NCBI GenBank assembly: GCA_000442125.1
Contig: KE546967.1
Location: forward strand, 930,001-994,000
Source of the DNA: Opeltia flavorubescens
Taxonomy: Eukaryota; Ascomycota; Lecanoromycetes; Teloschistales; Teloschistaceae
DNA length: 64,000 nucleotides
Direction: 5' to 3'
In this document: piece after piece, positions 17,170 through 61,305 of the stretch
How the letters are laid out: each line of letters starts with the position of its first letter
Position numbering within the stretch: position 1 is the first letter of the stretch
The notes under the pieces: model-generated
What the model was told of the DNA's origin: nothing
The model's input: the letters and a program-made list of their open reading frames with translations, nothing else
Databases searched by the model: none
Translations under genes and position numbers: made by a program

Positions 17170-17374
17170 TATTGCGGCTATATTGTATAGGCAGAAGGCT
17201 AATAAGGCAAGTAGGGCTAAATAGCTATTATAGCTCGTAGGAGGCCTTTTAAATATATTTACCTAGTTAGGTTTAGCGCCTTTTAGCGCCTATATTTATT
17301 TTATTATAAATTCTATAAATAGATAATTCTTTACCTTTAATATAATACTATTACCTTATACTTTTTATATAATA
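17170..17374 (+). repeat. Gypsy-1 5' LTR
   Basis: 205 bp, starting TATTGCGGC and ending TATATAATA. It aligns with 24139-24341 and, in reverse complement, with 25009-25213, 54093-54311 and 61087-61305. The GGAGGCC block and the paired TTTAGCGCC/TTAGCGCC words are conserved in all copies. Confidence 0.9.
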
Positions 17375-24138: not shown

Positions 24139-24341
24139 TATTATAGCTATACCGTATAAGTAGAAAGCTAATAAGGTAAATAGGGCTAAATAGCTACCGT
24201 AGCTCGTAGGAGGCCTTTTAAGTATATTTATCTAGTTAGGTTTAGCGCTTCTTAGCGCCTATATATTTAGTTACAGATTCTATAGATAGATAATTTCTTA
24301 CCCTTAATTTAATATTATCACTTTATACCTCCTGTATAATA
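24139..24341 (+). repeat. Gypsy-1 3' LTR
   Basis: 203 bp partner of 17170-17374, ending TGTATAATA just before the target duplication GTAAT. Confidence 0.9.
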
Positions 24342-32184: not shown

Positions 32185-32564
32185 TTATATATATATATTA
32201 GAAAACGTCTTTTAATAGCTTCTCGACTTGAAATAAATATAAATTTTATCGATTAGTATCGAATAAAGATAAATATATTTTAAGTTTTACGCGTTTTCGT
32301 ATTTTAACTATTGAATTAACTGATTTTTTTATAATTGAATAGCTTTATTAGTTTTATATATAGTAGTATATATAGTAATTAAATTTAAAATATTTAATAA
32401 GCGTATTTTAATAATATAAAGACTTTTAAAATTAAACGAGAATTAGTAGCGTTATAATATATAGAAGTTCTAGGTATATTAAACTGGCTGGGAACTGGCT
32501 TCTAGTTCTACTAGCTATTAGCTATTAGTAGTAAAGTTCTATTAGAACGGTGGCCTAATCCTTG
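32185..32564 (+). mobile_element. Non-autonomous Helitron N1
   Basis: A 380-bp insertion in Copia-2 gag. Its 5' end, TTATATATATATATATTAGAAAACG without the run-length difference, matches the start of the autonomous Helitron at 36254, and its 3' end is ...GGTGGCCTAATCCTTG. The empty site can be read in the Copia-2 element near 45120 (reverse complement): the insertion lies exactly between A and T and no target base is duplicated, the hallmark of Helitrons. A small hairpin GTTCT-ATT-AGAAC (32537-32549) stands 15 bp from the 3' end. No coding capacity. It would depend on the Rep/helicase of the 36254-type element for movement. Confidence 0.82.
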
Positions 32565-32781
32565 TATAATATATTATTAAATATAAAGCCCCTATATATT
32601 TATTATCTATTTTTCTAATTTTTATATTATTAGCTATATTAGTTATAATAAATCTTTCAAAATAATATTAAGCTTTATTTTTTAAGGAATTTTATTATTT
32701 ATATAAAAGAAATAAATAATTTAAATAATTTATATAAAATATATTTCTAAAAGTTTATCTTTTAATTTTTGTATATAATAT

Positions 32782-33372
32782 TTAAAAGAGCCCGAAATTT
32801 TTTTAAAAAAATTTTTAAAAAATTGAAATTAATAATAATTATATTTAATATATTTAATATCGTCATTGATATTTTTAAAGGTTAAAACTTTAAAAATTAT
32901 AAAATTCGAAATACTACTAAATATAATAAGAAAATAATTAACAATTTTCAAATAATTTTTAAAAAAATTTATTTTTTAAAAATTTATTTTTTAATTTTTT
33001 TAGCCCTATTATATTTTTCAGCCCTACTAGGCTTTTCAGCCCTACTAGCTATTTCAGCCCTATAAGCTTTTTTAGTAAGCGTATAATGAAAATCGACAGC
33101 GCAAATCTTCTATAGCTAGTAGCGCCACCAATTTTTATCCAAATTTCAGAATTTTTACGCCGTTAGAATGCGCTCGTTGAGCGCTTAAAACTGAGCCACT
33201 TTATATATTACTGTATATAAAACTAAAAGAGTTATACTAACTACAAAATCTGGCTGGATTTTGGGGTTTCTCGTTTATTAAACGCAGCTTGTTACTAATA
33301 AATAAGCGGGTAGAAATTAATTTCTTTATTAGCTGGACCTTTTATTTACTAAATCTATTATAAAAAGAATAG
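32782..33372. mobile_element. Unclassified 0.6-kb insertion in Copia-2 gag
   Basis: Copia-2 gag aligns up to about 32780 and resumes at about 33373, so roughly 590 bp is inserted. The inserted DNA is less RIP-converted than its surroundings and contains four 18-bp tandem repeats (33002-33073) and a G+C-richer core with CpA/TpG intact (33080-33300). AATA flanks both sides, a possible short target duplication. No terminal inverted repeat, LTR-like ends or reading frame was found. It could be a SINE-like or solo-LTR-like insertion, but neither is demonstrated. Confidence 0.6.
33002..33073 (+). repeat. 18-bp tandem repeat, four units
   Basis: Units of the type AGCCCTACTAGGCTTTTC at 33002-33019, 33020-33037, 33038-33055 and 33056-33073. 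The second and third keep AGCCCTACTAG intact, the outer two vary in the middle. It lies inside the unclassified insertion 32782-33372 and occurs nowhere else in the window. Confidence 0.9.
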
Positions 33373-34254
33373 ATTAATAAAAACTTTTTTTAAACTATTA
33401 AAAAGCTTTAAACTATTTATAAATATTATTAAATTATTAATATTATTTATAATAACTTTAATAAATAAAATAATTAAATTTTTAACTATTAATTATTCAT
33501 TTAATTACTCTCTATATTAGTTTAACTAATAGGATTCAATTTTAATAATTTATTGAGTCTATTAATACCAGTATATTTTTTCGATTTAATATCTAATACT
33601 TTATTTAGTAGCTCTTTTACTTTTTTTTCGCTTTTTTCTTTTTTAATTTCTATATCTAGTCGTTTATAAATATTGAGCTATAATTATTTAGATCTATTAA
33701 CTTTATAAAGCTATAGTAAATTTACTAGTATTATATCTATTAATAAAAATACTATTAAATTAAAAGGTTTAAATTTTATAATTTTATCGATTCTAATTTT
33801 AAATATATTTAATAATTAAAAGCTATAAAATTATTATATTAAAAAATTTCTACTAATTAATAAATTAAATAATATTTTTAAAAAAGTTTTTAAAGAATAT
33901 ATATCTACTTTTTTATAATAACGCCGAAATAGAAAAATATTAAAAATTATAAAAGTTATTTATAGATTAAATATTTCTATTTTTATTAAATATATAAATA
34001 TACTATTATAAATAGTTACTAAATTTAAAGCTAGTTTTAAATTATAAAAAACTATTAATTTAAAATAAATCTAGATTATTTTTAATAATTTTTGTTATTT
34101 ATAATTTAAAAATATTAAAAAATATATAAAAAAACTCTATTATTTAAATAATAGATTTATAATTATAAATCTCGCTTTTTTTAAATTAAAATTTATTAAT
34201 TATTTTTTTTAGGCTTTAAACTTACTTTTAAAACTTATTATATTATTTTTATTA

Positions 34255-34635
34255 TTATATATATATTAGAAAACGTTTTTTATTAGCTTTCCGACTTAAA
34301 ATAAATATAATTTCTATTAATTAATATTAAATAAAAATAGATTTCTTTTAGATTTAACGCGTTTTTATATTTTAATTACTAAAATAGCTTTCTCTTTTTT
34401 TATAATTAAATAATTCTATTAGTTATATATATAATAGTATATATAATAGTTTAGGTCAAAGTATTTAATAAGCGTATTCTAATAATATAAGAATTCTTAA
34501 TATTAGATAAAAATTAGTAGCGTTATAGTATATAAAAGTTCTAGGCGTATTAAACTAGCTAGGAACTGGCTTCCAGCTTTATTAGCTACTAGCTGCCAGT
34601 TGTAAAATCCAACTAGAACGGTGGCTTAATACTCG
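34255..34635 (+). mobile_element. Non-autonomous Helitron N2
   Basis: A 381-bp sister of N1, inserted in the same Copia-2 gag 1.7 kb downstream. It starts TTATATATATATTAGAAAACG less its last base and ends GTGGCTTAATACTCG. The uninterrupted site in Copia-2 (near 44000, reverse complement) shows insertion between A and T with no duplication. Its last 22 bp align without gaps to the last 22 bp of the autonomous Helitron at 51541, with only one difference that is not a transition. No coding capacity. Confidence 0.84.
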
Positions 34636-35113
34636 TTATTAGTATTATTATATTTAAAACCAGTATATAAAATACTATTTTAAATAAAATAATCTATATA
34701 ATTAAAAAAAGAAACGCTTTTAATAAATTATTATTTTTATTAGTTGAGAAACGTTTAATAAATTAATATACTATTTATTAAAAACCAGATTATCTAGCTA
34801 AAAATTATTTTATAATCTATTTTAAGCTTCGTTTTAAATAGTATAAAAATAGTTAAAATAGCTATAAAAATAGTTATAAAGGTTATAATAGCTATAGTAG
34901 TTATAATAATTATAAAAATAATTATAAAAATTATAAAAATAAGACGGAGAATAATAAAAAACGCTATTATAATAATATTAATAATTTATACTCTAAATCT
35001 AAAAAAGGTAAATAAAAAGACGATAAAAAAAGTATTAGTTTTTTAATAATAACTACTCTATTAACTATAAATTTAAATTTACTAATAACTAGATTTTTTA
35101 TAATATTTACTTA

Positions 35114-35245
35114 TATTAAAATCACGTATATAAAAAGCTTACTTGATTATTCTAAAATATAAAAGCTCTAGTTATATATACGGTTTTCGTTCGAAGTAGC
35201 TAGAGTTATATAACGTTAGGATTGATTTATATATATATTTTAATA
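35114..35245 (-). repeat. Copia-1 3' LTR
   Basis: 132 bp aligned with 2876-3007 and, reversed, with 16567-16699. The sequence following on the plus strand matches the reverse of 16100-16566, which fixes this as the 3' LTR of a minus-strand element. Confidence 0.88.
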
Positions 35246-38200
35246 TTTCTATTTAGAAAAATACTAACGATATAATAAAAATAAAAAACTATATAATAAA
35301 TATATTAAGTAAATAAAAATAAATATATAATATAAGGTTTTTATATATTCTATAAAAGTAGTTTTTATTAGTATTAAATTCAGCCTAAATACTATACTAA
35401 ATAAAAAAACCGAGTAAAAAAAATCGAAAAAACTAGAGGTATAATTTAGGCGATAGTTCAAACGATTTCTAGACGGTAAACCCCTATAAAGGTATTAAAA
35501 ACTCTAGGCGATCAACTCTTTATAGCGCTAGTAGTATTAGTATTATAGCGCTATAAAAAGCTTAAAAGTACGCTAATAATATAAAAAGATCGGTAAATAA
35601 TATTTTAATTTTAACTAAATCCTTTACTATATAAAATATATTTTACGTAAAATTTTTAAAAAAAATATTATTTTTATATTTTTATATATATTTTAAAAAT
35701 AAAATTTTACTTTAAATCTAGATTTATAAATTTTATATATAAATATATTTAAAGAATATATAAAAGAAGTAATATTTTTTATTTATTATTTTAATAATAG
35801 TAAATTAAATTTTATAGTATATTTATATATAATAAACAGTCTAAATATATATTATTCGATAAATTTGATAGATATTCTTAAAACATTTATACCTTTAAAT
35901 ATATATTTAAATATAATATTTCAGGATATTCCTAGTTTATAGAATTTAATTAGATATTATAGTTTATAATTATATATTTTAAAAAATTAAATATATTTTA
36001 GTTAAATAGATATTATTATTAGTATAACTTTTATTAGCTATTTATAAAATAATATTACTAGAAATTAAAAAAAATTATAATAAGCCGAGTTAATTTCAAT
36101 ATATTAAAGCTCCGGGTAGTTATAAAAGAATCTATTTTAAAATATAATAAATAGGCCTCGCTATTCTTTAATTTAAAGCTATAAATAATAATATTTAAAA
36201 AAAAAACCACCGGGAGTTTATAATAATAAAAAATAGATAAATAAACTTTATTATTATATATATATTGGAAAACGTCCTTTATCGGCTTCCCGACCCGAAA
36301 TAAATATAAATCTTATCGGTTAGTATTAAACGTTTATAAATTCTATTCCGGTTAATATAATTTAAGGGGTTTTAACTATTAAAATTATTAAATTTTATAT
36401 AATTTCGAGTTAATACTATTCGCGAATATATAGTTAAAAAATAACTAATCTAGATTAAAAAGTAAATCGAGCGTATTCGAATATATTTTTTAATTTTAAA
36501 ATCCGATATTATTAATATTATTAGTATCGCTATAAAGTTTTTTTAACGATTTTTTTATTTTATTTATTTTTTATACCTTTTTTTATAAATTATATTTAGA
36601 AAATTTTTTATTGCGAGTATTTTATTCTAAATCTATTTAAATCTATTTATTTTCTTTTTATCGCGTATCTATAATATATCTTTTATTATAGTACTATTAC
36701 TATTTAAATATCTTTTTATTCTTTTTTAAAAAACTTTTTTTTTATTAATTCTATTATTTTTAAACCCTTTAATTATATAAATAATATTAATATTATACTA
36801 TAACCGATATAAATATTTTAAATATTATTTTAATTTTAAAATTTTTTTAACAGTTTTAAAATTAAATAAATATTATACTATATATAATATTTATCGAGAT
36901 AAGGTAGCTTCGATTCCTATTTCTATTAATAGTAACTAACTTACTAGTTAAAACGGTCGCTTTTAGAAATTTTTAATATAAATATTTAATCGAATTAAAG
37001 TAAATTATTATTTTTAAAATAGCCCTATTTTTTTAACTTTTATTACTCTCGCTTTTATAATATATAGGTACTATATTAATAGATTCGACTCTATAGATAA
37101 CTATAGATAATTCCGTTACCGCGTCTTTAGGCTAAATACTTAATATATTATATATCTTTTTTACCTAAAAATATTAATTAAAATCTAAAAATTGTAGTTT
37201 CTATTTTACCGCGAAAATTATACTAGGTATATTAAAAATAGTTTTTAATAAAAATAGCTAGAAGTTATAATTTATAATCTTCCTTTTCCTTTATAAATAA
37301 AAATTTTAATTTTAATTCTAATTTTAAATCTATTATTAATAATAACTTTAATTCGGACTTTAAAATTAACTCTTTTTAAAATAGTATCTTTAAAAGCTTT
37401 ATTCTATTTAAAATAAATCCTAATATATTTTTATATAAAATATTAATATTTCCTAATTTTTTTAATTACCTTTAATTTATCGTTTTAAAATTTAATTTAA
37501 ATTTTATAAAAAAAAAGAAATTATTTTAGGAAAAATCTAGTTAGCCGGATCTATTATATTATTTAATCGGGCTTTATTATAGCTAATAGAACTATAAAGG
37601 AAATAGATTACTATTTATACCGCTTAAATATAAATTAGGATTATCTAAAATAACTCTTTATTATATTAATTCTCATAATATATTAAATTATACTGGGGTA
37701 TAAATATATTTTATTTACTCCTATTATTACGCGAAATACTAGGTCGAAAAACGCGTTTTAAATATATTAACTTCCGCTATAAAATATAAGCTTTATTATA
37801 AAAAAAGCTAGCTAATTAAATTAATAGATTTTTTTTTAAAAATACTCTAATTTTTAAAAAAAAATTTTATTAAATAAATACCTTATAATAGAAAGTTTTA
37901 AAAAATTATTTAGCGTTATAATAATACTTTTATATTTATTTTAATTAAATATTAAAGCGATTATTATTATATTTTTAACCGCGGACCGTAGGCTTTTATT
38001 ATATATAACGAAATATATTATATTTAAAAATCTTTTAAACCTATTAATAAGGAATCCCTTTTATTTATATAATATTTCTTTCTAGATTTTAATAAAGCTA
38101 TTAATACCTATATTAAAAATAATTATAGAATATATTTTAATAATTATCTAAATTAAGGGATTCTATAGGATTTAAACTATATATTTTAGAAAATTAACCC

Positions 38201-38943
38201 TTATATTAACTACTACCGGACGGCTCGGAAAATCCTTTTTTAAAAAAAAAAATTCGAATTTAAAACTATTTTTACTACTAATTAATATATAAATATAGCT
38301 AATTATTAAAAAAAAGGGTTAATAAATATCGCGAGAACTAACTAGTTTAAATTATAATAAAATTTAGATATTAATCTCTAATAAGTAATTTAAAAGTTAT
38401 TTTTATAATATTTATTTATTTTAAAAAAAAAGTTAAAATTTTAAAAAATATGATTTTTAAAAAATTAATTCAGATTATTCTATTTATATACTATTATATT
38501 ATATTCTTCTTTTTATAAAAAATAAATAAAAATTTAATTAAAATCGTTTTATTAATAAATAAAATAGTAAATAATATATTTATTAGCGTAATTATTATCC
38601 GTTTCGTTTATATTAGCGTGATATAGAATTTAACCCGATTTTTTATAGTATAAAGCTTTTCTAGTAGTATATTTATAATATATAAATAGTTTATAATTAA
38701 AATACGTTTAATTTTATTTATTAGAATTAGAATAAAATTCGAGCTGAATTATATTAAAAAATCTAAAATTATTTAGTAGCGGATAATTTAGATTTTATAA
38801 GTAACCGCCCGGGTTTTAGATATTAAATAATTTTACCTTTTTTATATATATATAGGAACTATTTTATATATATAGTAATAATAGATTCGTATGCTATTAT
38901 ATAGTATTATAACCGATTTTTCCTATTTTTAATAATAACTATT

Positions 38944-39138
38944 TGTTGAAATTATATATATAAAATACTACTTAATTGACTAACCTGGGCTCTACCCACT
39001 CTATATACAGATGAATCTGGTGGCTGGGGATACTCCTACACCAGTCTAACCTAATTGGGTAAGTAAGGCTCTGTTAAGGCTCTACGGAAGTACCCGTCTT
39101 AGTATATTTAGCGGTATACTACTTGTATACTTTCGATA
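38944..39138 (-). repeat. Copia-2 3' LTR
   Basis: 195 bp, starting TGTTGAAATTATATAT and ending ACTTTCGATA on the plus strand. About 24 differences from 45813-46007, all transitions. Confidence 0.93.
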
Positions 39139-39530
39139 CTTCTATATAAGTATTATATTGCTAACGCCTCAGTAAAAAAAAAGAAGATATATATATAGTT
39201 CAGTTAATCGAAAAGAAAATAGAGGAAACTAGATAAAAAGGGATAGGAGTATAGAGCTTCTATAGGCTTATTAGCCCGCTATTCTAGTAATTCTAGTACG
39301 CTCTTTAGCGCTAAATAATTCAGTGTAGAATAGCTGGTATAGAGCTCCTATAGTATTAAACCCCCCTATAGTAGCAGCGTGCTTCTATACGGTATTGGTG
39401 CTGATTTGCTGTGCGTAGAATATATATATTCGTTTTACCTATTACGGATCTATTTTACCGACTTTAATANGAATTAATTACTGAGTATATTTTACTAACT
39501 TCCCTCTATTAAAAGGGGATTTTATATCGT
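39139..39530 (-). other. Copia-2 3' untranslated region
   Basis: About 390 bp between the 3' LTR and the minisatellite. It is comparatively G+C-rich and holds no reading frame. The short A run at about 39175-39182 near the LTR is polypyrimidine on the element's own strand. One N at 39470. Confidence 0.5.
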
Positions 39531-39644
39531 GTGCTTTTAGTAATATAATGTGCTTTTAGCAATGCAATATACTTTTAGTAATACAATATACTTTTGGCAA
39601 TATAATATACTTTTAATAATATAATATACTTTTAGTAATACAAT
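39531..39644 (+). repeat. 19-bp minisatellite, six units, in Copia-2 3' region
   Basis: Six head-to-tail units of RTRCTTTTAGTAATAYAAT at 39531, 39550, 39569, 39588, 39607 and 39626. The first two read GTGC at the start, the other four ATAC. The array lies between the RNase H end and the 3' LTR of the Copia-2 element. Confidence 0.93.
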
Positions 39645-42600
39645 ATATTTATAGCAGTTAATATACCCTTTTTGCACTTTCGTATATATTTTAAAAATAA
39701 AATTTTACTACGAGTTTAGATTCGCGAATTCCAGATAAAAATAGGCCTATAGGATATATAGGAATAAAGCCTTCTATTGCTTTATAACGATTTTGTGTAT
39801 TAGTAGCTAGGTAAATAGCGGCGAGCTTATAGCGGTGGCTATAGACGGTATATACCTAATTTAATAATAAGGGTTTATAGCTATAAAGTGCCTAAATACC
39901 CTATATAAATATAGCGTTAATTAGATAAAAATTGGTAATACTATTAATAAAAATGTTTGTAGTATTATAGTGGATTACGTTTGTAGATTACGTCTAGAGG
40001 TATACTAAAACTGTATATCGCGCGCCTATAGCGGATAATCTCTAGTACTTAATAGTAAAAATAAGTTTATTTTACGGCCTAGTAGATTATTAAGGCTCTT
40101 ATAATCTAAAACGGAAAGTTGTAGCGAGTTCCGATAATAATAGTAAAAAGAGGCGAGTTAAGGGTTTACTTTATAGCGTATATATAATTATTTAGGTTTT
40201 ATCTTTAGCGGTATTAGCGGTATATAGCCTTTTAATTATTAAAGATCTAATATATTATAAAAATATTTAAAAGCTGGCCTGTTAAAGGTTTTAGTAAGCC
40301 TATTAATAACTTATTTATTTATAAATATAAAAGTTAGGTTTATTATTCTTTCGTCTAGTTATTCGCGTAAGAACTTAATTTTAATATTTATATATTTAGT
40401 ACGCCTATAAAACTAAAGATTTTTAGCTAGAGTAATAGCCCCCTAGTTATCGCTATAGAGTACTATTATTACTAGCTTCGAATTTAAGTTATTTATACTA
40501 TTAATAGATAATTAGCTAAATAGGTTTTATAGTTAGATTATTTTTTTAATCGCCTAGGTTTAACCTTCGTATTTAGCTTTATAGGTAGAAAATATTATTA
40601 TATTCTATCGTTTAAATAACTAGCTAATAGTTCTACTACTAATATAGAAAATATAGCTAGATATAGAACGCCTTATATTATAATTACTAGCCTAGTCCGA
40701 ATCCGTCCAGCCTTTAAGCTATTCTAGGCCCCTAGTATATACTAGAATTAAATTTTTAGTAGTTTATAGGTACTAAAAAATCCACTAGATAATAATAAAA
40801 TAAAATTTCGTTAGATTCGATATAAAGCGGCTAACTACTAATACCGTATAAGCGATATTAGGCCGAGTTCCTAGTATAGTATATATTAGTAAGCTTATTA
40901 TACTTTAGTATTAGCGCTTTAGCTTTACTAGGTATTTATATTATAGGTTAATAAAAGGAATTAAATAGTAGTTAGTTATTATTAGTATATAGACCGGTTT
41001 ATATTATACTATTCTATAGTCGTTTAAAACTTATTTAATATAGATTATTTAGCTAAAATAAAAAACGCCGACTTTACGGTTTCTAATAACTTTTATACCT
41101 AAATAATAGTTAATAAAGTCTAAATTTAATATCTAAAAAGTATTATTAAGCTGTTTTTTAATAGTATTAACTTCTAAATAGTATTTATAGATAAAAATAT
41201 CGTCTATATATATACTAATAATAATGCGCCCGTTATAAAATATATTATAGTCGGATAATAAAGGTTAAAAATTAATTACTTTAAAAAAACGAGCGAGGTA
41301 TTTATATTAAGCTCGAGGGCTTTATTTAAGCTTATATAAAGTTTTATTTAGTTTATAAACGAGGCTAGGGTTATTAAAACTATAGGGGTATTCTATATAT
41401 ATAATTTCTTTAATCTTACTATATAGGAAAGCTGTTTTTATATTTATCTAGTTAATTTTAAGACCTAGGGCAGCTATTATAATAAAGATTACTTTATAGC
41501 TTATTAGTTTTATTATTAAAGTAAAAATTTTATTATAATTAATACCGGACTATTATAAAAAATTATAGATTATTTATTATACTTTAAACTTTATAATATC
41601 GTTATACGTATCCTATTTAATTTTAAAGACCTAGCAGTTAGAAAAAATAGATTGTATAAAAGATAGTAATTATTTAGTATATATTATCTATATATTATTA
41701 TATTTTAAGGACTCTAGTTTTTCTTCTATTATCTATTTCTAATATTTAACGTACAGCCCAGCTATAGCTTTATTATATATTTTAGGCTTTAGAGGGTCGC
41801 TTTTAGGGCCTATTTTATTAAATAAGGTAGATAGGAATATAATTAGATTAAGTAATTTAAAAGGTAATTAAAGGAGGTATAGTTATAAATAGCTTTTAAG
41901 GGTATTAGCTAGAATATTAATAGAGTAGCTTTAAACTAGATCTATTATCTTTACTACGAGCCGTTTACTGCGGCGTGCCTATATTATTAATAATAACGAA
42001 AGGGAGGATTCTAATAACGAGTCCGATATAGACTATAATAACGTTAATAGTAAGGATGTTAATTAGTTATATACCGCGGATTTTTAATCCGTATATAATA
42101 CTTATCTAGAAAACAACCCCCTAGTATTTATATACGGGGGCCGCTCCTAAAGCTATTATTATTTAGGAGCTAGCTCGGGTTATTCTAGTTTATCGTTATT
42201 ATCTTTAATATTATTTATATTCGGGTTATTAAATTTATTAAACTTTACTAAAGAATAATAAATAATTTTACTATCGGGCCTTATTAAATTATATATACTA
42301 TCCGAGGAATAATTAATATAGATATAATATTTAGTATAGGGGTTAAATTTACGAAGGTGATATATATAAAAAAGGTATATAATCGAACCTAAAATATAAA
42401 GTTTAGATAAATTCGGTAGGATTCTATATATTTTTTAATATAGTATTATACTATTAAATTTATTATTTAATAACCGAAAATAGAAAAAGGTAGTAGCTTT
42501 AATAAAAAAGGGCTAGTATTTTAAGTTTATATTATTAATAATAAGTATTAAATAAGCTTTACGTATAATTATTTACCTAAAATATTTAGCAGCTCCGTTC

Positions 42601-45600
42601 TACTATAAATTTTTAAAGATAATATACTCCTAATATATACCGCGTTCCACGAAGTTAATAGTAAAGAATCTATTTTTATACTCGCTACCGCTATTATTTT
42701 AGAAACGCTTAATTTTATAAAAGCCTATTTTATATAGGGCCCGAAATTTATTCTAATAAGTATAAGTAGTTTTAGTATTCTTTATTCTATTATAGAATAT
42801 ACTATAAATTTAGGTCGTATTATCTAGGAAGGTTAGTATATAGGTAGTACTATTATAAGTTATAGAAAGCTGATAGGGGGACGCCTAAATAGGACCTATA
42901 GTATTTAAATAAACCAGCTCTATTAATAGTTTACTAGGTTTAATTAATAAAATATAAAGATAATTATATTATTTACTAATAGTATAGGATTTATATATAT
43001 AGTTATCTGGAATCCTTTTTAAATTAATACCGGTTAATTAGCCGGTAAGCTTTTAAAGATTTTAATTGCCGATATAACCTAAACGGGTATACTAGATTTT
43101 TTCGACCTTTTTACTAATAGCTGTTAAGGATATATCTATAGCTTTTAATAACGCCGATAAAAGTATTTTAGCCAGGTATAATAGATAATATCTACTACGC
43201 CTACTAGTAGTTAATATAGTTTTAGGGATTTTAAAATTAAAATAAAAGCCTTTTTCTAGTAGTTTAAATTTAATACCCTTCTTTTAGAATTAATCCGTCG
43301 ATAGAAAATTAGCTATTAATTTTAGCGTATACTAAATATTTAAAATTATTACTAGCTTTAGTTTTTTATTAACTATATACTAGAGCTTTAGTATATCTAT
43401 ATATATTAGGCTATTTTTAGCGTTAAAGTATTCTATTATTTATATCCGTTTTAATAGATAAAGGTCTTTTAATAGGTATTTTTAGAAGGTAATATATTAT
43501 AAGTAAGTACTATTAAGTATCCAGTTATTAGCTAGATCTAAATTAGCAGCTAATAGTATAGCTATTATTAAAAATCCGATAGGGGTTTTTTTATTGTTTT
43601 CCTACTTATTCTTTTTAGATTTAGAGCGCGAGTTATTATTATTATTATAACGGCGCTTTTTATTATTGTTCTTTTTATTTTTATTATCTTTATTACTATT
43701 TTTATTATTATTACGACCGTTATAGCCGCTACGACTTCTATAATTACTTCTATAGCTATTTTTATAGCTACTTTAGCCTCTTTTATACTATTTTAGACGG
43801 AGTTCAGGATAGCTTTTAAAGTAATTTTTAGCTAGATAGCCTGGTTTTTTATAGATAGTATATCAATCCGCTAGGCGTTTCTCGCTATTTATAGCTACTA
43901 TCGCTATTAAATTAGTAAAGGTATCGATTTATTAAAAATATTTTTCTCTTTTAATTATACGGACTGTTTCGTCTAAAGTAATACTTTATATACCGGCTTT
44001 AGGTATAATAATATTAGTAATAGTAAAAGTAGTATAAAAAATTAAAAAATTAGGCCTAAAGCCTAAAAGGAATTTATTAATAAGTATTAATTTAGAAAAG
44101 GCGAGATCTATAGCTATAAGTTTATTATTTAGGCGGTAAAATTCCGCTATATATTTTTTAATATTCTTAAATTATAAATAATAAAAATTATTAAAATAGG
44201 CCTAAATTTATTTTAGATTAGCGGTTTTTTATAGTTTAAAACCAGTTTTAAACTTAGTAATTATTTATAATAGAATATTTATATATTTTATAAGAGTATA
44301 GATACTTAATTTATAGGTTGCTTTAATAGTTTTATATATCTTTTTATTCCGGTATTATTATAGAGGAGTAGGTATATAGTAGTTAGGAACTTCTTTAAAA
44401 ACACTATCTAGTTTATTAATTAGTAGGAATTTTTTAACGCGATAGTTTTATAGCTCCTAGTTATTAGAGGTATTTAATATTGGAATAGATAAAATTAAAA
44501 GGCTTAAACTTTCTAGTTTAATAGTATCTTTATCGATAGATATAATACTAGTAAGTTTACTTTAGCCTCGCGAGTTTAATGGATATAAATAGCTAAAAGT
44601 CTATAAACGACTAGGTATAGGAGTCGGTAAGGAAAAAGATAAAGGCGAAGAAGAAGTAAAAGGGCTACTAGAAGGTATATTAACCGCTAGACCGAAGAGG
44701 TATAATAGTAATAAAAATATAGATAGATTGTTAGTATCGGTTTTAATTTTAATTAGCTGTACTAATATAGAAGGTAATCGATTAGGTAGTTAATAGTTAG
44801 AGTCCTAATTATTAGGCTTATTAGAATTACGCCTAGTAATATTTAGGAGCTATTAGTATTTATTAACGGTTTAAAGCTATTTAATAGTTCGATAAAAGTT
44901 TTTATTAACGCGTTATATACGAAAATTTAGAGGTAGGCCTTTAAAAAAACGTCCTTTAATAAAGTCTTTATATTATTTATTTATTTTATATAAATAAGAA
45001 GGGATTTTAAATAGTAAAGGTTTATGTTGCTCTAATATATTTATTATAGCTAATATAGCTAATAATATAAAGGCTAGAAAAATAGATAATAGGTATATAG
45101 GGGCTCTCTATCCAATAATATAATATATAATAGTTTTAGTAGTTAGTAGGTATATTCTAAATTCTTTATCTACTACGAATCGTAATAATAGAATATAATA
45201 GCTAGGAAAACTATTAACCAGCCTTTTTTTTATAAGTAAAATCTAGTATTATAATAGCGCTAGTTCGTTTATTTATATCTAAAATTGCTAGTAATACTAG
45301 TATATATCTATACGTCTATCTAGGTATCCGGATTTTTTCTAGAATAGTAAGGAAAATAGTTTAAAGGCGCCGTAGCGCGTTTAATTAATTAATAATAGTA
45401 TTATATTATTTTAATTTATATCGTTTTCTAGAGAATTATAAAATATAACTGTATAGTAGATTAGCGTTCCACCCGAAGTTTAGTATAATAATTATTTAAT
45501 AAATAAGGTATAAAGAGTAAATATATAGGTTAATTTAGCCGATAGATCTGGATTATATTAGTATATAAGGTCTAAAAACTATAGTATATAATATATAACA

Positions 45601-45798
45601 GCTATAAGCTGAGTTTATTCCCCTTTTCTTTTATTCTGCTTAGGAATTCTATATATTATTCATCTGGTTATAGGCTCTATAAGGAGTTCTAGTAGGCATC
45701 TAAACGTAGTGCGTATTAGTAATATTAGGAGGTATTTATATAAGGATAGGAGCGATAAATTAAACGATATAATAGATATAAATAAGCAGCTATAAGCT

Positions 45799-45812
45799 CC
45801 GGGCTTATAACC
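45799..45812 (-). other. Primer-binding site of Copia-2
   Basis: Minus-strand GGTTATAAGCCCGG directly inside the 5' LTR, nearly identical to that of Copia-1 (9502). It fits the anticodon-loop half of initiator tRNA-Met, as in Drosophila copia. Confidence 0.72.
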
Positions 45813-46007
45813 TATTAAAATTATATATATAGAATACTGCTTGATTAACTAATCTAGGCTCTACCTACTCTATATATAGATGAATCTAGTAGCTAGGGAT
45901 ACTCCCACACTAGTCTAACCTAATTAGGTAAGTAAAGCTCTGCTAAGGCTCTACGGGAGTACCCGTCTTGGTATACTTGGCGGTATACTGCTTGTATACT
46001 TTCGATA
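45813..46007 (-). repeat. Copia-2 5' LTR
   Basis: 195 bp partner of 38944-39138, adjoining the primer-binding site on its left and the target duplication CTATT on its right. Confidence 0.93.
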
Positions 46008-49000
46008 CTATTAATCTAAAATAGCTTAAAATTATTAAACCGCTAGAACCGAATTAATAAATTATTAATTATTTAAATACTATTATAAAGGTTTTTAATA
46101 TCTAGAAGAAAATATTATTAAAAAAAATTAAAACCGATATTTTTAAAAAGTTTTTAAAACGGGTATAAATAATTAAATATTAAAAATAAAAGTTTTTTTA
46201 TATATATTTATTAATCTTTATTAATTATTAAAATATATTTTAGAATATAAATATAATCGATTTAATAATTACTATTAAATTACTACTATCCGAATCAAAT
46301 TTAGATAGTTTTTTAACTAGAATTATATAGAAATCTATAATATATAGGTTATATAGTAAAATTTATTTTAATACTTTTTATATTATTAAATCCTTTAATA
46401 ATAGTTTAAAGCGATATTTAAAAGGGTTTTTTAAATTATTTTAAAAAAAAAACTATTTTTTTTAATAATAGTTACTCTAGTTACTAGCGACTTAATAATA
46501 GTTATATCTAGATAAAAAAAAATCTTTTTATTTTTAATAATCGGTAGATTATACTATATAATCTATATTTTAATAGTTAATATAATTATTATATTAATAT
46601 CCAAATTTATTCCGGTTTTAAAATAATTCGATATATTTATAAATATATTTATAAAGGTTATAATTATAAAACTATTATAGTAATAAAAAAAAATATTAAA
46701 GATAATAAAATAACGCGGTATTTAAATAATAGGATTATTAATTTATTATAAATATATTAAAATTTTTTTAAATATCGAAACTATTAGAAATAATTACTAG
46801 TTTAAAAACTTTATTTTTACTTTAAAAAAATATATTAGGTTATATTTCTAAATAAAATTCCGGATAATATACTTATTCGACGAGCGGAAAATATAATCTA
46901 AACCTTAATAGAGTAATTTAAATATAATATTTTAAAATAAAAATAGCCGTAATATTCTATATTAGGACTTTTTAGAATATTATATATAAAAGAAAGATTA
47001 TTAAAAATCTTAGGAAAAAAATATTTTAATTAGTTATATATATTATTATAATCCTATTATAAAAAAATAGTATTATCTTTTACGGTTATTTTTAAAAATT
47101 TTTAGTACGGAATCGTTGATTTATTTTCGAATATATAAAAAAATAATATATAATATCTTTTGAATAATATATTTTACCTACGGTCTAATATCTAATAATT
47201 CTAAATATGAATATTATTTTAAAAAATTATTTATATTTATAGAAGGGAAATAGCTATAGAGCTTCTTTATTATAATATAAATTTATAATATATTAAATTA
47301 TTTATAATAGCTTTAAAAATAATTTCGGGAATTAATTTATAATAATCTAAAATTTTAATTTAATATAAAATATTTTAAAGCTTCTAAAAACTTTAAATAT
47401 TTTAAATAAAATTATAGGCTATATTAAATATAATACCTTTTTATTTATTAAAATAAAACTTTAAAATAATTCCGGTTATAATTTTATAAGTATAATTAAG
47501 GCCTAATTATTCAAAATCTTTTAATAAGAGCGGAATTAAATTATAATACTAATAATTAATAGTAGCTATTTAAAAAAAACCGGTTAAAATTAAATGATAA
47601 ATAATAAATAATATATAATTATATTATTTTAAAGCTTATAGATAAAAATTAATTCTTTTTTTTTAAAGGCCGGCCGGTATAAATAAAACCTTTTTATATT
47701 AAACCCTATATTATTATTTTCGTATCTATAGTAAAGTTATTATTTATATTATATTCTTTAATATCGCTATACTACTACTTTTTAATAGCTAAATATTATA
47801 TTTTTATTTTAAAATTCCTATCGATATTCTAGATAATTCTTTATATTTCGTTGACTAAAGTTTAAAACTTAGTAGTTTATTTTAAAAAATAATAATAATT
47901 ATTTAAAATAAGGTTCCTATATAATATAAATATTATTTTATAACAGTCGACTATATATTACGCGATATATATAATAAAAACATTCCTTTCGAAGGAAAGC
48001 GGATAATTTTTAATAGCGATTTTATATAGATTCTTTCGGTTATACCTACTAGTTCTAGAGGTACTATTATTAAAATAAATATTTAATAATGTTCTATTTA
48101 CTATTATTTTAAATAGTTATATTTAATTTAAAATATACGGGTTTAATATAATATTATTAATATTCGATTTATATAATAGTTAAAAAGAATATTTTATAAC
48201 TAGAATTTATATAATATAATTCGGCTGTTAAATAAAATTAATTAAATAATAAATTTTTAAATTTTTTAAAAATATATTTTCCTAATTTAAAAGCTTTATA
48301 ATTTATAATATAATCTAAATTTCTTTTAAAACCGCGCGATTTTAATAATATATAATATAATAATCGATTTTTTAAATTAAAAACTACTATAAAACTTAAA
48401 TAGGGAAATGAAAATATATAATTTTTAACTTCTATAATTAAAATAAACGCTAGTCTAAAATCGAAAAGATACTATTAAATTAGCTAAATACTTTTAAATT
48501 TAAAAGTTTAGCGCTTTTAAAATTAAAGTTAAAGATTAGCGTTTTAATAATATTAATTTATATTATTTATTTTAAAAATAATATAATAAATAGGATTTAT
48601 TTATAAATAATATATTTTAATTGTAATATTATTAAAGGTCGAATTATTAATAGTATCTTTTATAGTTAAAAACGCTTAATTTACTATATTTTATTAATAA
48701 TCTCGAAAAGTAAATTAATAGGTATTATCGTAAAAAAAAAATCATTTCTAATTTAGTTTATATTCGCTATAACTATTAATAAATTATAAGAGTAAATATT
48801 ATATCGTATCGGTTTAGATTTTCGGATATTTATTTTTTTATATAAGTATCTCTATATAGCTTTATCTTAAATTACGGATATTATAGGTATATTAATAATT
48901 TTACTATAAAATTAAAAAGATTTATAAAGAATTTAGTATAATTAAAAATATTAATAAAACGGCTAATATAGATTTTATTATTTTATTTTATATTATATTA

Positions 49001-49029
49001 AAGGTATCGTTATAAAAAAAACGACTATT

Positions 49030-51517
49030 ATAATTTAAAAAAAAAAAAAAAAAACTATTAAAATAGTATTAAATTTATATAAACTATTAAAGTAGTTTTA
49101 AATCTAATATTAATATTTATTATTTAAAGTAGTATTGAAATTAATTTTCTACTATAATAGAATTTCTAATCTAAAACTACTAAAGTAGTTATATTCTATT
49201 TTAAAAAAAAAGAATTTTATAAATAACTATTAAATCCGCTATATTATAAACTATTAAAAAAAATTTTTAACTTAATATCTACCTTTATAATAATTCTAGC
49301 CGATTTTAACCTTTTATTATACTCGAAGTATAATTACTGTAGATATTATTTAATATTTAAATACTCGACTATAAACTACTTCCGAAGTTCAATCTATTTC
49401 TAGATTTATTTTAAATTCGCCTATTTTTCTTTAATACTATATTCTAATAATTTTAATTTTTTTATAAAAGTTATAATATCTATTAATCCGATTAGCTATA
49501 AATAAATATAAAGCTATATAGAATTATTTTAAATATCGCGGCCTATATAAATATTACCGCTATATTAAATATTACTATTTTCTATTTTTTAATATTTTAT
49601 TCGTCGTTTTATATCTGAATCTAGTCTTTATAAAAAATATTTCTATTTTAATACTAACGTGCTTATTAAAGCCGCTTTTGTATTTATTAAAGCCGTTTTT
49701 TTTTATTTTAATTTTTATATTTTTTCTACGGCTTTTGAAGCCTTTTACTACTTATATTTTATATAATATTTTCTAATTAAGAGCGCTTTTATAAATTTTA
49801 AATTTTTTATTATATTATAAGCTTTATTTTTATAAACGTCTAGAATCGGTTAGTAGCTATAATAAAATAAGTTAAAATAGAATTTTTACTAACAAAATAG
49901 TTTAATTTCGCCCCCTAATAGTAATAATTAGTGTAAACGCTATTAATATCGCTTTATACTATTATATAATTTAAAAACGGCCTATTACCCTTACTATATA
50001 AAATATAAAAAACTTTAGCGATATTACCTGTAATTTATAATAAAATCGTTTTTTAATTAATTAGTTTTTTACTACCGACGGTTATAATTAAATAATTTTA
50101 GGGATTTCGTAATATAAGTTTTTATTTAATATAATTAAAGTTTAGAATCGTTTAATAATAATTAATATAAGATTTTCTTTTTAAACCGTCTAATAATTAA
50201 TATATTATCTAGTATATTAATTAGATATAATAGACCCTTTTAAATTTTAAAACGCCCGGATTATAAGCTAAATTATAAATCGCCGGTAATTATAATAAAG
50301 TCGTAAAATCTAGGGGTTTTTATAATAACTCCTACTACTGTTAATAGCTATTTTATTTTATTTTTTATATAGTTATAACGTACTTTTATATTTAAAATTT
50401 TTAGATTATTGATTTTAAGCGCGTTTAAATTATTACTACCTAAATTATTATTTTTATTATTTAAAGGTATAGGAATTATAATAAAGCGCTATATAACGAT
50501 AATTTTATATTATAAATTATTATTTATAATAAATTCCGGATTTAAATTTAAAAATTCGACTACTTAAAAAACTATAACGCTAATTATTTCTAATTTAGTT
50601 TTTATTTTTTATATAGCCGTATTAACTAATTTAATTAACGCTTAAATTATCTATAATTTACTATTTATAAATATATAATATATTTTTAAAAATTATTAAA
50701 ATCGTTTTAATCGATTTATATCTTTAAATTAAAAATTAAATTAAGGTAAAAATCTAATTAATTTTAATATATAATATTTATACTAATTTAGTTTTCGGGT
50801 TAGTAATTATAGGTTTTATATCGGCGGTTCTAAAAATAAGATAAGAAATCGTAGTATTTATAATAGTAAGAGTTGTAACTACCGTAATTATTATTAGAGA
50901 AGTTATTAAAAAAGAAGTAGTAATAAGTAGTAAACTCGCTGTAATAGGTAAATTAGTAGATAATTCTAAGTTTAATTATCCTAAGTTTAAAGACGATATA
51001 GGTTAATTTATATTAAGTTAAGTTTATAAAATATTATTTACGATTTAATTAGTAATAAATAATTATAAAAAAAGTATTAAATTTATAAAAGAATTTATAA
51101 TTAATTAAAAAAGAAAAAAGAAAGAAAAAGAGTTTATTATATAGATTTTAGTTTATATTATCTCGGAGTTAATTTAAACGCGCGGGACTAGTTATTTAGC
51201 GCTATATAAACTTTTAATAAATATTAGATTAGCATTTAATTAAAATCGATTAGTTATTTAAAAAATAGCTAGTATTATTCTATAGTATTTCGTAATGACT
51301 ATAACGATTATTATATTTTTTTTAAAATTAGTTTTAATATTAACGACGAATTATACAATCTATTACTATAATATATATTTATATATTAAAAATACGGGAA
51401 TATTATTATTTTATTAAAGTATAACTTTAGATATTTTAGTATCTATCGAATTAAATTTACTAAAACTTCGATAACTTTTAATTCGTTTATTACTTTAGTA
51501 AATTTAATATTATTTAA
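49030..51517. other. Helitron 3' region without recognised gene
   Basis: About 2.5 kb between the helicase end and the terminal hairpin. It opens with an 18-base A run (49037-49054) followed by four copies of the self-complementary word ACTAYTAAARTAGT (49054, 49083, 49119 in degenerate form, 49176). A second repeated word, TATTAAAGCCG, occurs twice near 49660-49690. No domain could be recognised in any frame. Helitrons often carry captured or accessory sequence in this position, which is only a possibility here. Confidence 0.5.
49054..49189 (+). repeat. Dispersed palindromic words in Helitron 3' region
   Basis: ACTATTAAAATAGT (49054), ACTATTAAAGTAGT (49083), TTATTTAAAGTAGT (49119) and ACTACTAAAGTAGT (49176) are near-perfect inverted words spaced 29-57 bp apart, just downstream of an A run. 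Confidence 0.6.
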
Positions 51518-51541
51518 ATCGGAACGATAGCCCGATACTAG
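51518..51541 (+). other. Helitron 3' terminus: hairpin plus CTAG
   Basis: ATCGG (51518-51522) and CCGAT (51532-51536) can pair around a 9-base loop, and ACTAG follows, ending the element at 51541 just before the T of the target. CTRR ends preceded by a short hairpin are diagnostic of Helitrons and act as the transposition terminator. The stem is short, perhaps reduced by RIP. Confidence 0.75.
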
Positions 51542-52236
51542 TATACTATATTATAATTAATATAATTAGTTACCTAATAGGTTTATATTATAGAATATAC
51601 TTTATAACGGCTTCCGGCCTAAAAAATCCAATTATACGCGTAAAATTCTAGGCGCTTTTTAATACCTAATTATAGTCGACTATAATAGTAAAAATAGATT
51701 AAAAAGTAAAAATTTTATAAAAATCTCTAGTTTATACCCTAGCTATATATATATAAATATACTTTTCTATAAAAACCTTCAGCGGTATTATTTAACTTTA
51801 CTTTAATAATTTACTTTAAATAATTTTATTAGTAGACTTAAAAGATTTTTAAAAGAAATAAAAATTTTTTAGATTGAATTTCTAATAGGCTCTTTACTTA
51901 AAATCTAATGAAAGTTTTAAATAAAGATTTTTTTATATTCTAAATATTTTATATTCCTCTAGAGTTATATTTATAAGTATTCTAATATATATTAAATAAA
52001 ATTAAATACCGTTTTAGAGCTTTTTTTTAAATTTAATATTATCTAGAAAGTTTTGAAAGGGTATTTAATCTAGAGGTTTTATAAACCTATTTATAATTAT
52101 CTTATTAATAGATAGAAAATAAAGGTTAATTATTTTATTATCGATTTTCCTTATAGGCCCATCGATAATTTAAGATACCTTCTTAAGATAGTATCGAATA
52201 TAGCTAAAGAGAGTGTTTAGGTATTAATCGAGGAAA

Positions 52237-52256
52237 TACTAGGGAATTCCCTAGTA
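52237..52256. repeat. Perfect 20-bp palindrome
   Basis: TACTAGGGAATTCCCTAGTA, self-complementary over its full length, near the left end of the TIR element. Confidence 0.95.
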
Positions 52257-52954
52257 AATACTCGATAGATACTTTCTCGATACCGTATTAGGTGTCAGGT
52301 ATTAAATATTAAAATTTTTATTTATCAAAAAGGTTTAAAATAAGATTTTTATTTTTAATATAACTAAAAAGCCGCTAGTCTTATAGCTTATATAATCAGT
52401 ATAAATATACTAAAAATAGCTGCTCTACAAGCCTATATTATAAGAGAAAATATATTTAGTTTGAAACCCTCTCTAGAAGGTGCTAGGTATCAGGTGTTAG
52501 GTTTCAGGTATTTTTTAGAAGTTAAGTACCAGGATTCAAGTGCTTAAAAATGCTTAAAAATAAATTTCTTAAAAATTTCTAAGTTAAATAGGCATTACGT
52601 TATATAAATAAGCTAAGATTGTTTAATGTTATATTATTAGCGTATAGTTTAGAATAAATAGCTTATATAATCCCGACTTAAAATTATATATCTATTATAG
52701 CTAGCCTACCTAGAAAACAGCTTTAAAAAGTTTTTACACGAGTTCAAATCAGATAATTTTCTTATAAAAAACGAATTTAAATCGATCTATCGATAGATCT
52801 ATATAAAATAGTATTACGTTATAAAATCTACTATATATTACTATTCTTTTCCTATTTTTAGTACCTAACACCTAACACCTGAAAAGGTTTAACACGAAAA
52901 GTGGGTTTTAAGCCCCTACTAAATAGGTGTCGAGAAGGTATCAAACGGTGCCAG

Positions 52955-52972
52955 CACCTACTATAGTAGGTG
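52955..52972. repeat. Perfect 18-bp palindrome
   Basis: CACCTACTATAGTAGGTG, self-complementary, near the right end of the TIR element. Confidence 0.95.
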
Positions 52973-54092
52973 TTGACACTTTCTCTAGTCCTTCTCTAGC
53001 GAGTGTCTCAAATCATCGATATAGCCATAAAGTTTTTTTTAAACTATTTAACTTAAATATTTATATACTTCTAATACCTATAAAATTAGAGGTTTTTAAT
53101 TAGGATAATAACGCTTTAATTATTATTATAGATAATAATAGCTTTAAATTTAAAGGTTTCCTATTTTAATAATATTTTGTTTAAAAAGTTTTAAAGCTAT
53201 ATAATTTTTTTAATAATTTAGGTTTATCTAATTATTTTAGGTTTATAAATAAATAAAAATATTATAGTTTAATATTTTAAAGACTAATTAAAGGCTCTAC
53301 TCCTTATATTAAAAATATACCCGGAGGTTAACTATTATATAGATTAATTACCCGCCTAGTTAAGATTTATATAACCTATAAAGGCTTATAAATTACTTTT
53401 ATAAGTAAGAATTTAGGAAAAAGTTCTTTTAAAATACCGGAAAATTCGTTTAATAGTATTTTAATAATATTTTAATAAATTTAAACTATAGCGATTAATA
53501 ATTAAAATAATATAGGCGATATCGGGGCGAATTTTAAGTATAGCGTATATAAAATATCTAATAAAAGATTAATATTATTTATAAAAATTAGATAAATAAT
53601 TATACTCTAGAGGAGTAGGTTTTAAATAATAAGTGGTTTTTATAAATATAGCGATAGGCTTATAATTCTAGAATTTATAATTTTAAAATATCTATTTAAT
53701 ATATCTAATCTAGCTAAATTATAAAGTTCGATTTAATTTATTATAAGTAACTTTTATATTTAAATCAAAATTTAAAGAGCTTATATCTATTATTTAAAAA
53801 ATTTATAATAAATATTATATAATTTTATTAATTTTAAAGGTACTAAAGTCTATTATAAAAATATTATTTATATAAACTTTAATAATTATACGTTTATTTA
53901 TAAAAATACTTTAGTTAGCTAATAATAGGCTAAAGCCGAGGGTTTAAATAAACTAGCGAGATAAGTATACTATATTTAAGGGGATTATTTAAAATTATAA
54001 AAAGTTTTATTAAATCTATAGATAAGTTTAAAAAAACTTTTTTCAAAATTTATAAATTATATAATATAAATTTTTTTCTTAATAATATTATA

Positions 54093-54311
54093 TGTTGTAC
54101 AGTATTTGTTATACAGTAAGTATAGGGTGATAGTATTGTATTAAAGGTAAGGAACTATTTACCTGTAGAATCTGTAACTAAATGAATATGGGCGCTAAGA
54201 GGCGCTAAACTTAACTAGGTAAATATGCTTAAAAGGCCTCCTTCGGGCTACGGTAGCTATTTAGCCCTACCTGCTCTATCCGCCTTCTACCTATGCGGTG
54301 TGGCCGCAATA
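54093..54311 (-). repeat. Gypsy-1 3' LTR, long form
   Basis: 219 bp, plus strand TGTTGTACAG...GGCCGCAATA. It has an extra 14 bp at this end compared with the LTRs at 17170, 24139 and 25009: the word GTACAGTA is followed 14 bases on by ATACAGTA, a short tandem duplication. Confidence 0.92.
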
Positions 54312-60300: not shown

Positions 60301-61086
60301 ATTTAATAATAGTATAATACTCCTTTTTAATTTTATTAAATAAAGTAGGCTAGATTCGGTATTAGAGATATAATTTCGCTATTTAAATATATTAATAAAT
60401 TTAATAATATTTATAAGTTTATCGAGCTATTATAAATCTTTTAATAAATTTAAAAAATAAAGATAAAGGTTTAAACTATTTTAAATAAAATTTATAACTA
60501 GCTTTTAAATATAGATTTAAAAGCCTTCGTTTTTAAAGATTATAGTAGCGTTATTATAGAAATCGTTTATTACTTTAGTAAAAATCTATAGATACTTACT
60601 TTAATCCGTAGGGTAAGTAGTAATAGAAGTTATATTAGCTTTTATTATACTAGTTTAAATTACCCGACTATTAGAAAATTCCTATATTAAGAAACGGTAT
60701 AAGCTTAGACTTTTTTTATAAATATAATTAATATAGGCTTTAAGGATTATTATAAAGGCCCGATCCTATTTTAAAAACCGTTTAATATATTTTTAAAATT
60801 TTTTAATATAGAAGGTAGTCGTAACGAGAGTTAATATAATAGCGAGGTCGGTTAAATTCTTTAAATTATTATAAAAAGTATTTAGAACTTTATTAAAAGG
60901 ACTAGAAATTAGGGTATATTTTAGTTAACTCTATTAACCGAGTATTAGTACGAAAGCGGTAGTTTAGTAAATAAAAAAGTATTAGGTTTATCCGGAGAAT
61001 CTAGTACTATATAATAGTTAATAGTCTATATATACGGAAGTTAATAGTATTATATTTTATACGGGTTGCTTTTAATTATTATTATT

Positions 61087-61305
61087 TATTATATAGTATT
61101 TATTGTATAGTAAGTATAGGGTAATAGTATTATATTAAAGGTAAGGAACTATTTATCTATAGAATCTATAACTAAATGAATATAGGCGCCAAGAGGCGCT
61201 AAACCCAACTAGGTAAATATGCTTAGAAGGCCTCCTTCGGGCCACGGTGGCCATTCAGCCCTACCTGCCCTATCCGCCTTCTGCTTATGCGGTGTGGCCG
61301 CAATA
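61087..61305 (-). repeat. Gypsy-1 5' LTR, long form
   Basis: 219 bp partner of 54093-54311 with the same 14-bp terminal extension. The right 110 bp keep many CpA and TpG sites. Confidence 0.92.

Follow-up and report, generated by a model that had tools for sequence, protein, structure and literature searches.

A mutated Helitron split by a Copia retrotransposon, with two short probable passengers, in Opeltia flavorubescens

Positions 36254–51541 of a 64,000-nucleotide stretch of Opeltia flavorubescens DNA (the window) raise the question of what kind of element is present, and whether two short copies nearby, N1 and N2, are its partners. The preliminary description took the locus as a single Helitron of autonomous type, with N1 and N2 as members of one family with it. 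The reading that we favour with high confidence is that of a Helitron, about 8.2 kb long and degraded by RIP, accompanied by N1 and N2 as non-autonomous passengers, each of about 380 bp.

Insertion sites and the nested Copia

The ends of the large element, N1 and N2 were set from paralogous empty sites in Copia copies of the window. Only collinear matches of at least about 71% were used; matches of 58–63%, of which there are hundreds, are the background of such AT-rich DNA. N3 was left out of the end definition because its ends are degraded. The elements are the following.

32185–32564, plus strand: N1, non-autonomous, ends CCTTG (empty site rc(45100–45145))
34255–34635, plus strand: N2, non-autonomous, ends ACTCG (empty site at about rc(44020))
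36254–38943, plus strand: Helitron 5′ portion with the initial stretch of the Rep domain (empty site, Helitron_like_N, Helraiser match)
38939–38943, no strand: CTATT target duplication, left copy (identical to 46008–46012)
38944–46007, minus strand: Copia LTR retrotransposon nested in the Rep domain (LTR pair, RVT_2 1.3e-30)
46008–46012, no strand: CTATT target duplication, right copy (identical to 38939–38943)
46013–51541, plus strand: Helitron 3′ portion with the remaining Rep, the helicase and the 3′ end (Helraiser matches)

The large element starts at 36254 and ends at 51541, and its empty site is rc(15530–15580), inside a Copia copy with RVT_2 at 2.8e-26. The N1 and N2 empty sites are both in a Copia copy with RVT_2 at 1.3e-30, with which the right flank of N2 is identical at 281 of 397 columns (71%). 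These sites bear out the ends first given for the large element and the starts of N1 and N2; the length of 380 bp given for both copies is that of N1, and N2 has 381 bp.

The junction of the large element is ATTA/TATA (the slash marks the insertion point), as is that of N1, and each is free by 1 nt. The N2 junction is CTA/TTA and is free by 3 nt, so that a 3-bp TTA duplication is possible. Insertion between A and T, as proposed, is compatible with all three junctions (AT steps make up 0.16 of the window). No target duplication is common to the three elements; the earlier statement that nothing is duplicated holds for the large element and N1, and N2 alone could hold 3 bp.

The locus is not the single element it had been taken for. 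It is a Helitron split by a later Copia of 7,064 bp, whose LTRs (38944–39138 and 45813–46007) are identical at 172 of 195 positions and differ by 23 transitions, with no transversions and no gaps. A minus strand scan found no Pfam domains in this Copia besides RVT_2. Once the Copia is set apart the Helitron size is corrected to 8,219 bp (36254–38943 plus 46013–51541).

Coding content and decay of the large element

Features of the Helitron that lie beyond the Copia are as follows.

46193–46219, plus strand: former HUH motif of Rep, now FFYIYLLIF (aligned to Helraiser LPHAHILLI)
46629–46664, plus strand: Y2-like stretch RYIYKYIYKGYN, in a frame different from that of the HUH place (translation)
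47649–48155, plus strand: PIF1-type helicase domain (PF05970 4.5e-26; 2.2e-26 in a second search)

The large element encodes a Helitron RepHel. A Helitron_like_N domain is found at 38593–38784 (8.4e-6; 26.5 bits, below the cut-off of 28.9), and positions 38554–38937 match residues 404–527 of the Helitron transposase Helraiser, a bat Helitron1 with TC/CTRR ends (E = 9.8e-9; the next PDB entries have E of 2 or more). The Rep match ends at residue 527 and restarts at residue 535 beyond the Copia, where positions 46028–46279 match residues 535–619 as a weak second Rep piece (E = 0.025). Positions 47655–48152 match residues 1058–1223 (E = 2.1e-18), and for the helicase no PDB entry other than Helraiser comes within E 0.01. 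Helraiser is the only credible solved relative of the Rep and helicase pieces. The stretch RYIYKYIYKGYN may be the counterpart of the Y2 of Rep.

Rep (HUH/Y2) and a PIF1-type helicase, which together define the Helitron superfamily, are both represented here, through the Helraiser matches and PIF1. The Helitron identity that had been proposed from a Rep and a helicase is supported by the homology of both to Helraiser, the A/T sites and the lack of a common duplication. An AP endonuclease domain, the mark of Helentrons, was not found; the six-frame Pfam scan of 46500–51499 gave PIF1 only, in a test limited by degradation.

The large element carries a RIP-like load and is heavily mutated and dead. 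The HUH place and the helicase are in different reading frames, and the dinucleotides CA and TG are at 0.03–0.24 of expectation. RIP is probably the cause of the stops. Among the 23 differences of the nested Copia LTRs, 17 are of C-to-T type at CA, which is the RIP signature. Between N1 and N2, 9 of 58 transitions are at CA, 35 at CT and 11 at CG, and there are 15 transversions. Transitions in the older pairs are mostly not at CA, thus not every change is attributable to CA-type RIP.

Shared ends and terminal motifs

The ends compared are these.

36254–36343, plus strand: 5′ terminal block common to the large element, N1 and N2 (alignment)
51518–51541, plus strand: Helitron 3′ end, ATCGG-N9-CCGAT-ACTAG (empty site, alignment, motif scan)

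The shared 5′ start that had been noticed is present and spans about 90 bp in the large element, N1 and N2. The block of the large element is identical to N1 at 71 of 92 columns and to N2 at 67 of 90; after TTA(TA)n the figures are 50/60 and 44/60, and elsewhere on both strands of the whole window, N1, N2 and N3 excepted, no position exceeds 38/60.

The 3′ ends are less alike. The last 22 bp, described as shared, agree at 14 positions between the large element and either N1 or N2 and at 19 between N1 and N2, and 15–16 of the last 24 bases are common to the large element and N1 or N2. Other positions score as high: nine more of about 128,000 reach at least 14 with the 22 bp of the large element (two of them 15), and 6 and 16 others reach the same level with the 3′ ends of N1 and N2, respectively. 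The 3′ likeness carries weight only because the empty sites had already set where it should be. The motif AACGRTRGCYYRATNCTNG, allowing two mismatches, matches these three ends only (0.09 expected), and was derived from them, so their three matches are by construction. The core motif first given for the 3′ end does not apply to N1, which ends ATCCTTG and not ATACTMG.

The N1 interior is not common to the large element. Its alignment score is 257 with N2 and 51 and 38 with the two Helitron portions, and four other pieces of the window score 44–56. Over their full alignment N1 and N2 are identical at 305 of 383 columns. A family rule of at least 80% identity over the last 30 bp, as given in excerpts of PMC4289320, does not join the three elements as the preliminary description had done; the last 30 bp of the large element are identical to N1 at 19 positions and to N2 at 18, and N1 and N2 agree at 23. 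These figures, with the interior scores, make it a serious possibility, somewhat short of even, that N1 and N2 form a Helitron family apart, one that has an autonomous partner of its own and whose ends are only distantly like those of the large element. However, the 5′ 90 bp are clearly common to all three, and many of the last-30-bp differences from the large element are transitions (6/11 and 9/12), the kind that RIP makes. A separate family would be compatible with the reading of N1 and N2 as passengers.

Helitron1 elements were characterized by a 5′ TC, a 3′ CTRR, A/T insertion and a palindrome of 16–20 nt about 10–12 nt from the 3′ end. All three elements start with TT (TTA) rather than TC, which would fit a C-to-T change with RIP as the possible cause. 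At the 3′ end CTRR is present in the large element (CTAG) and absent in N1 (CTTG) and N2 (CTCG); the departure noticed earlier is real in both, and CTTG has already been reported for HELPO2 (PMC4289320, in excerpt).

The 3′ palindrome is 19 nt in length with 5 pairs and is 5 nt from the terminus. The proposed 3′ hairpin shared by the three elements is seen as a palindrome but folds no better than shuffles (40 nt: z = -1.25, -0.92 and -0.17; longer stretches: -0.45, -1.11 and -1.67). In both N1 and N2 another structure has the lowest energy, and 47 of 500 shuffles attain the two compensatory pairs that the hairpin has. A common hairpin is thus weakly supported.

Helitron2 elements have asymmetric terminal inverted repeats of 8–15 bp and a hairpin at the 5′ end. 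Most surveyed fungal Helitrons group with Helitron2, according to excerpts of PMC5148889, and the predicted fold of the 5′ end of the large element contains a TCGG-CTTC-CCGA hairpin (whole fold z = -0.19, no better than shuffles). Nevertheless it is doubtful that the large element is of this group, like FoHeli, rather than a canonical Helitron1, a question of subgroup that is compatible with the Helitron reading. The folds predicted for the 5′ ends of N1 and N2 lack such a hairpin, and the best inverted matches of one end to the other score 14.3, 14.7 and 10.8, where a null of 300 random pairs has its median at 12.5 and its 95% point at 17.2. The best exact inverted matches are 6, 8 and 5 bp, also within the null; degradation limits both the end-repeat and the hairpin tests. 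The A/T site and CTAG end fit Helitron1.

It is unlikely that N1 and N2 represent a fungal Helitron lineage in which the 3′ end is CTYG, with the palindrome all but adjoining it, and which a transposase from a CTAG-ended element moved in trans; if so, the third CTRR base would be free in that lineage, as would the spacing of the 3′ palindrome. Scarcely credible is the notion, already set aside in the preliminary description, that N1 and N2 have no relation to the Helitron and are either solo LTRs or the two LTRs of a single small retrotransposon: they have the same orientation and similar lengths and are 1.7 kb apart amid LTR elements, but their junctions lack a 5-bp duplication (4–6 bp are expected of solo LTRs), their 5′ block is common to the RepHel element, and their empty sites are distinct. 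The two sites are about 1.1 kb from each other in a single Copia copy, with which the sequence between N1 and N2 is collinear save one further insertion, so N1 and N2 cannot flank one element.

Proposed history and comparison with known Helitrons

Under the preferred reading, a degraded Helitron with two passengers, RepHel would have acted in rolling-circle steps by homology to Helraiser. Its HUH Rep domain would nick DNA at the 5′ end, the helicase would unwind one strand up to the 3′-end signal, and the strand would be joined to an AT target, with no duplication left by repair. The ends of N1 and N2 may be similar enough for this transposase, or a sister transposase of its lineage, to have moved the two copies.

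The TT starts, the CTTG and CTCG ends, the weak palindrome, the weak second Rep piece, the Helitron_like_N score below its cut-off, the frame breaks, the many transitions away from CA in the older pairs and the 3-bp option at N2 count against the preferred reading.

In wider searches with mutated queries of low power, viral contigs gave no matches to the N-interior pattern or to the 5′ and 3′ end patterns, and none of 19 stretches fitting the helicase pattern was confirmed; likewise none of 106 stretches in genome contigs was confirmed for the helicase. The N-type 3′ pattern, a mutated query of equally low power, hit two bacterial loci in genome contigs, which were taken as chance.

The element is of an ordinary kind, and the understanding of Helitrons is unchanged. 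The locus does illustrate how paralogous empty sites reveal Helitron ends and non-autonomous partners even in heavily mutated repeat DNA of a fungus; scanning for TC...CTRR would overlook the 5′ end of all three copies and the 3′ end of two.

Rep and helicase homology are in the same order as in Helraiser (PDB 7lcc). Unlike Helraiser, which is a working transposase, the frame is broken here.

By description the large element is also likened to the Helitrons of the ascomycete Mycosphaerella graminicola, which have a helicase and, in two of three families, a hairpin, CTRR and a 5′ TA in place of TC (PMC4522978, in excerpt). FoHeli of Fusarium oxysporum comprises RepHel elements of about 5–11 kb with non-autonomous members; their terminal inverted repeats are asymmetric, and TCAG...ATTTT is an example of their ends (excerpts of PMC5148889). 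The large element is alike as a fungal RepHel with non-autonomous members, whereas no inverted repeats were found at its ends.

HELPO1 and HELPO2 of Pleurotus ostreatus, as described in excerpts of PMC4289320, display AT insertion, RepHel and non-autonomous copies (HELPO1.3); HELPO2 ends CTTG, and an LTR/Gypsy element breaks the RepHel open reading frame of a HELPO1.2 copy. In contrast, HELPO copies are transcriptionally active and occur in a mushroom, while the element here is heavily mutated and broken by a Copia, its weak palindrome is nearer the end, and N2 ends CTCG. The likeness to HELPO extends to AT insertion, RepHel, non-autonomous copies, the CTTG end (in N1) and a RepHel broken by an LTR element.

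Insertion sites and relatedness of the three elements

The features concerned are as follows:

32185–32564, + strand, N1, short non-autonomous partner, 380 bp
34255–34635, + strand, N2, short non-autonomous partner, 381 bp
36254–51541, + strand, large element, a degraded Helitron with the nested Copia inside it
38554–38937, + strand, Rep piece 1, Helraiser residues 404–527 (E 9.8e-9)
38944–46007, − strand, nested Copia between the two Rep pieces, LTRs of 195 bp, reverse transcriptase match
46028–46279, + strand, Rep piece 2, Helraiser residues 535–619 (E 0.025)
47655–48152, + strand, helicase piece, Helraiser residues 1058–1223 (E 2.1e-18)

The element ends given in the preliminary description are correct and are set by empty sites in Copia copies, which were located by comparing the window with itself; the junctions were then read base by base. 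A Copia copy at ~11.2–16.7 kb on the opposite strand is collinear with 35074–36253 plus 51542–52141 and lacks 36254–51541. The empty site in this uninterrupted copy is TTTTATTA/TATACTATA, and the flanks of the large element end in CTTTATTA on the left and begin with TATACTATA on the right. N1 is inserted in another Copia copy, a second one spanning 31303 to ~35000, the uninterrupted counterpart of which runs from 46007 to ~43600 on the opposite strand; the N1 target is ACTATTA/TATATTA. N2 is in the same copy, ~1.1 kb further in by counterpart coordinates, at CTTTTACTA/TTACTAA. RVT_2 matches identify the two target copies as Copia (2.8e-26 for ~11.2–16.7 kb, 1.3e-30 for the N1/N2 counterpart). 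One base is assignable to either side of the junction for the large element and N1, and three bases for N2. The three junctions, read against the empty sites, show no common target duplication. With separate target sites for N1 and N2 and no such duplication, their earlier rejection as solo LTRs holds.

In the 60 bp that follow the TTA(TA)n start of the large element, N1 is identical at 50 positions and N2 at 44, and the assignment of both as passengers holds; elsewhere in the window, N3 excepted, the block reaches at most 38/60. N3, a third copy of this type (~897–1270), shares 43 of the 60 positions of the 5′ block with N1 and 42 of 60 with N2. Its ends are degraded. An LTR-element piece is present there as an inverted duplicate (~1–890 and 1275–2301), and N3 lies close to the middle of this arrangement.

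The last 22 bp of the large element are identical at 14 positions to N1 and at 14 to N2 (N1 versus N2, 19/22). At least 14/22 is also found at nine other window positions, two of which reach 15; the 3′ likeness carries weight because the empty sites had set the position beforehand. When compared with the Helitron, the N1 interior, which the N2 interior resembles, scores no higher than when compared with other pieces of the window; N1 therefore did not arise from the large element by simple deletion. The unity of the proposed single family is less secure than claimed.

Coding content and the nested Copia

The large element was translated piecewise, with stops read through, for comparison with the Helraiser transposase (PDB 7lcc). 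The Rep and helicase matches, together with PIF1, bear out the Helitron class. PIF1 is far above its Pfam cut-off and Helitron_like_N slightly under; a six-frame scan of 46500–51499 shows no Pfam domain besides PIF1. No Pfam domain is recognised in the ~3 kb past the helicase (48300–51500). Rep piece 2 and the helicase are in different frames, therefore a frameshift or intron lies between them.

The preliminary description took 36254–51541 as a single element and did not separate the nested Copia, which has the direct repeat CTATT on each side. Once this is set apart, the Helitron proper is 8,219 bp.

Base composition and mutation

GC is 10–26% across the window (2-kb steps), CA and TG are depleted to 0.03–0.24 of expectation, and no open frame of at least 150 codons between stops lies wholly within the window (standard code). 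The nested Copia LTRs differ at 23 positions, 17 of the C-to-T type at CA and none a transversion, a pattern typical of repeat-induced point mutation (RIP) in filamentous fungi. Older pairs also have more transitions than transversions, 58 against 15 between N1 and N2 and 95 against 8 and 139 against 15 in two Copia stretches, but the transitions in these pairs fall mostly at CT and CG or CC, with few CA sites left.

Other insertions are present. One of ~0.88 kb (~52152–53032), in a second Copia copy, has inverted-repeat-like ends, TATAGGCCCATCGAT.../...ATCGATATAGCCATA, and is perhaps younger because by eye it is richer in CA/TG than its surroundings. Another of ~0.6 kb (~32779–33373), in the Copia copy hosting N1 and N2, is partly CA/TG-richer by eye and has an 18-bp tandem repeat at 32996–33072. 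Three related LTR-element copies are at 17163–24341, 54056–61305 and 3006–9077, the first two with direct repeats of ~210–257 bp at both ends; six frames of the copy at 54056 display only one weak RT_RNaseH match, on the minus strand and below cut-off.

Terminal structure and known Helitrons

Last 24 bp of each element
Large element: ATCGG-N9-CCGAT-ACTAG
N1: ATTAG-N9-CTAAT-CCTTG
N2: ACTAG-N9-TTAAT-ACTCG

We know of no Helitron ending in CTCG. A common 3′ hairpin, as had been proposed, is possible. In the drawn palindrome 14 of 15 cells pair, two pairs are altered on both sides, and shifting the sequences by 1–3 columns lowers pairing to 7–47% of cells. It is less secure than claimed, however, since 47 of 500 shuffles of the three sequences equal this pairing and the folding energy is ordinary (z −0.17 to −1.67, six stretches of the 3′ ends). 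CG transitions are also present elsewhere in the old copies of the window. Inverted repeats between the 5′ and 3′ ends are no better than chance; asymmetric inverted repeats are a trait of Helitron2 elements and likewise of FoHeli, according to PMC3627910 and PMC5148889.

Canonical Helitrons are described, in PMC4067079, with a TC start, a CTRR end, A/T insertion and a palindrome ~11 bp from the end. The large element is alike in insertion site and last four bases, but differs in its TT start, and N1 and N2 differ in their ends. Two of the oddities found here already have precedent in Pleurotus, where, according to PMC4289320, HELPO2 terminates in CTTG and a RepHel ORF is interrupted by an LTR element.
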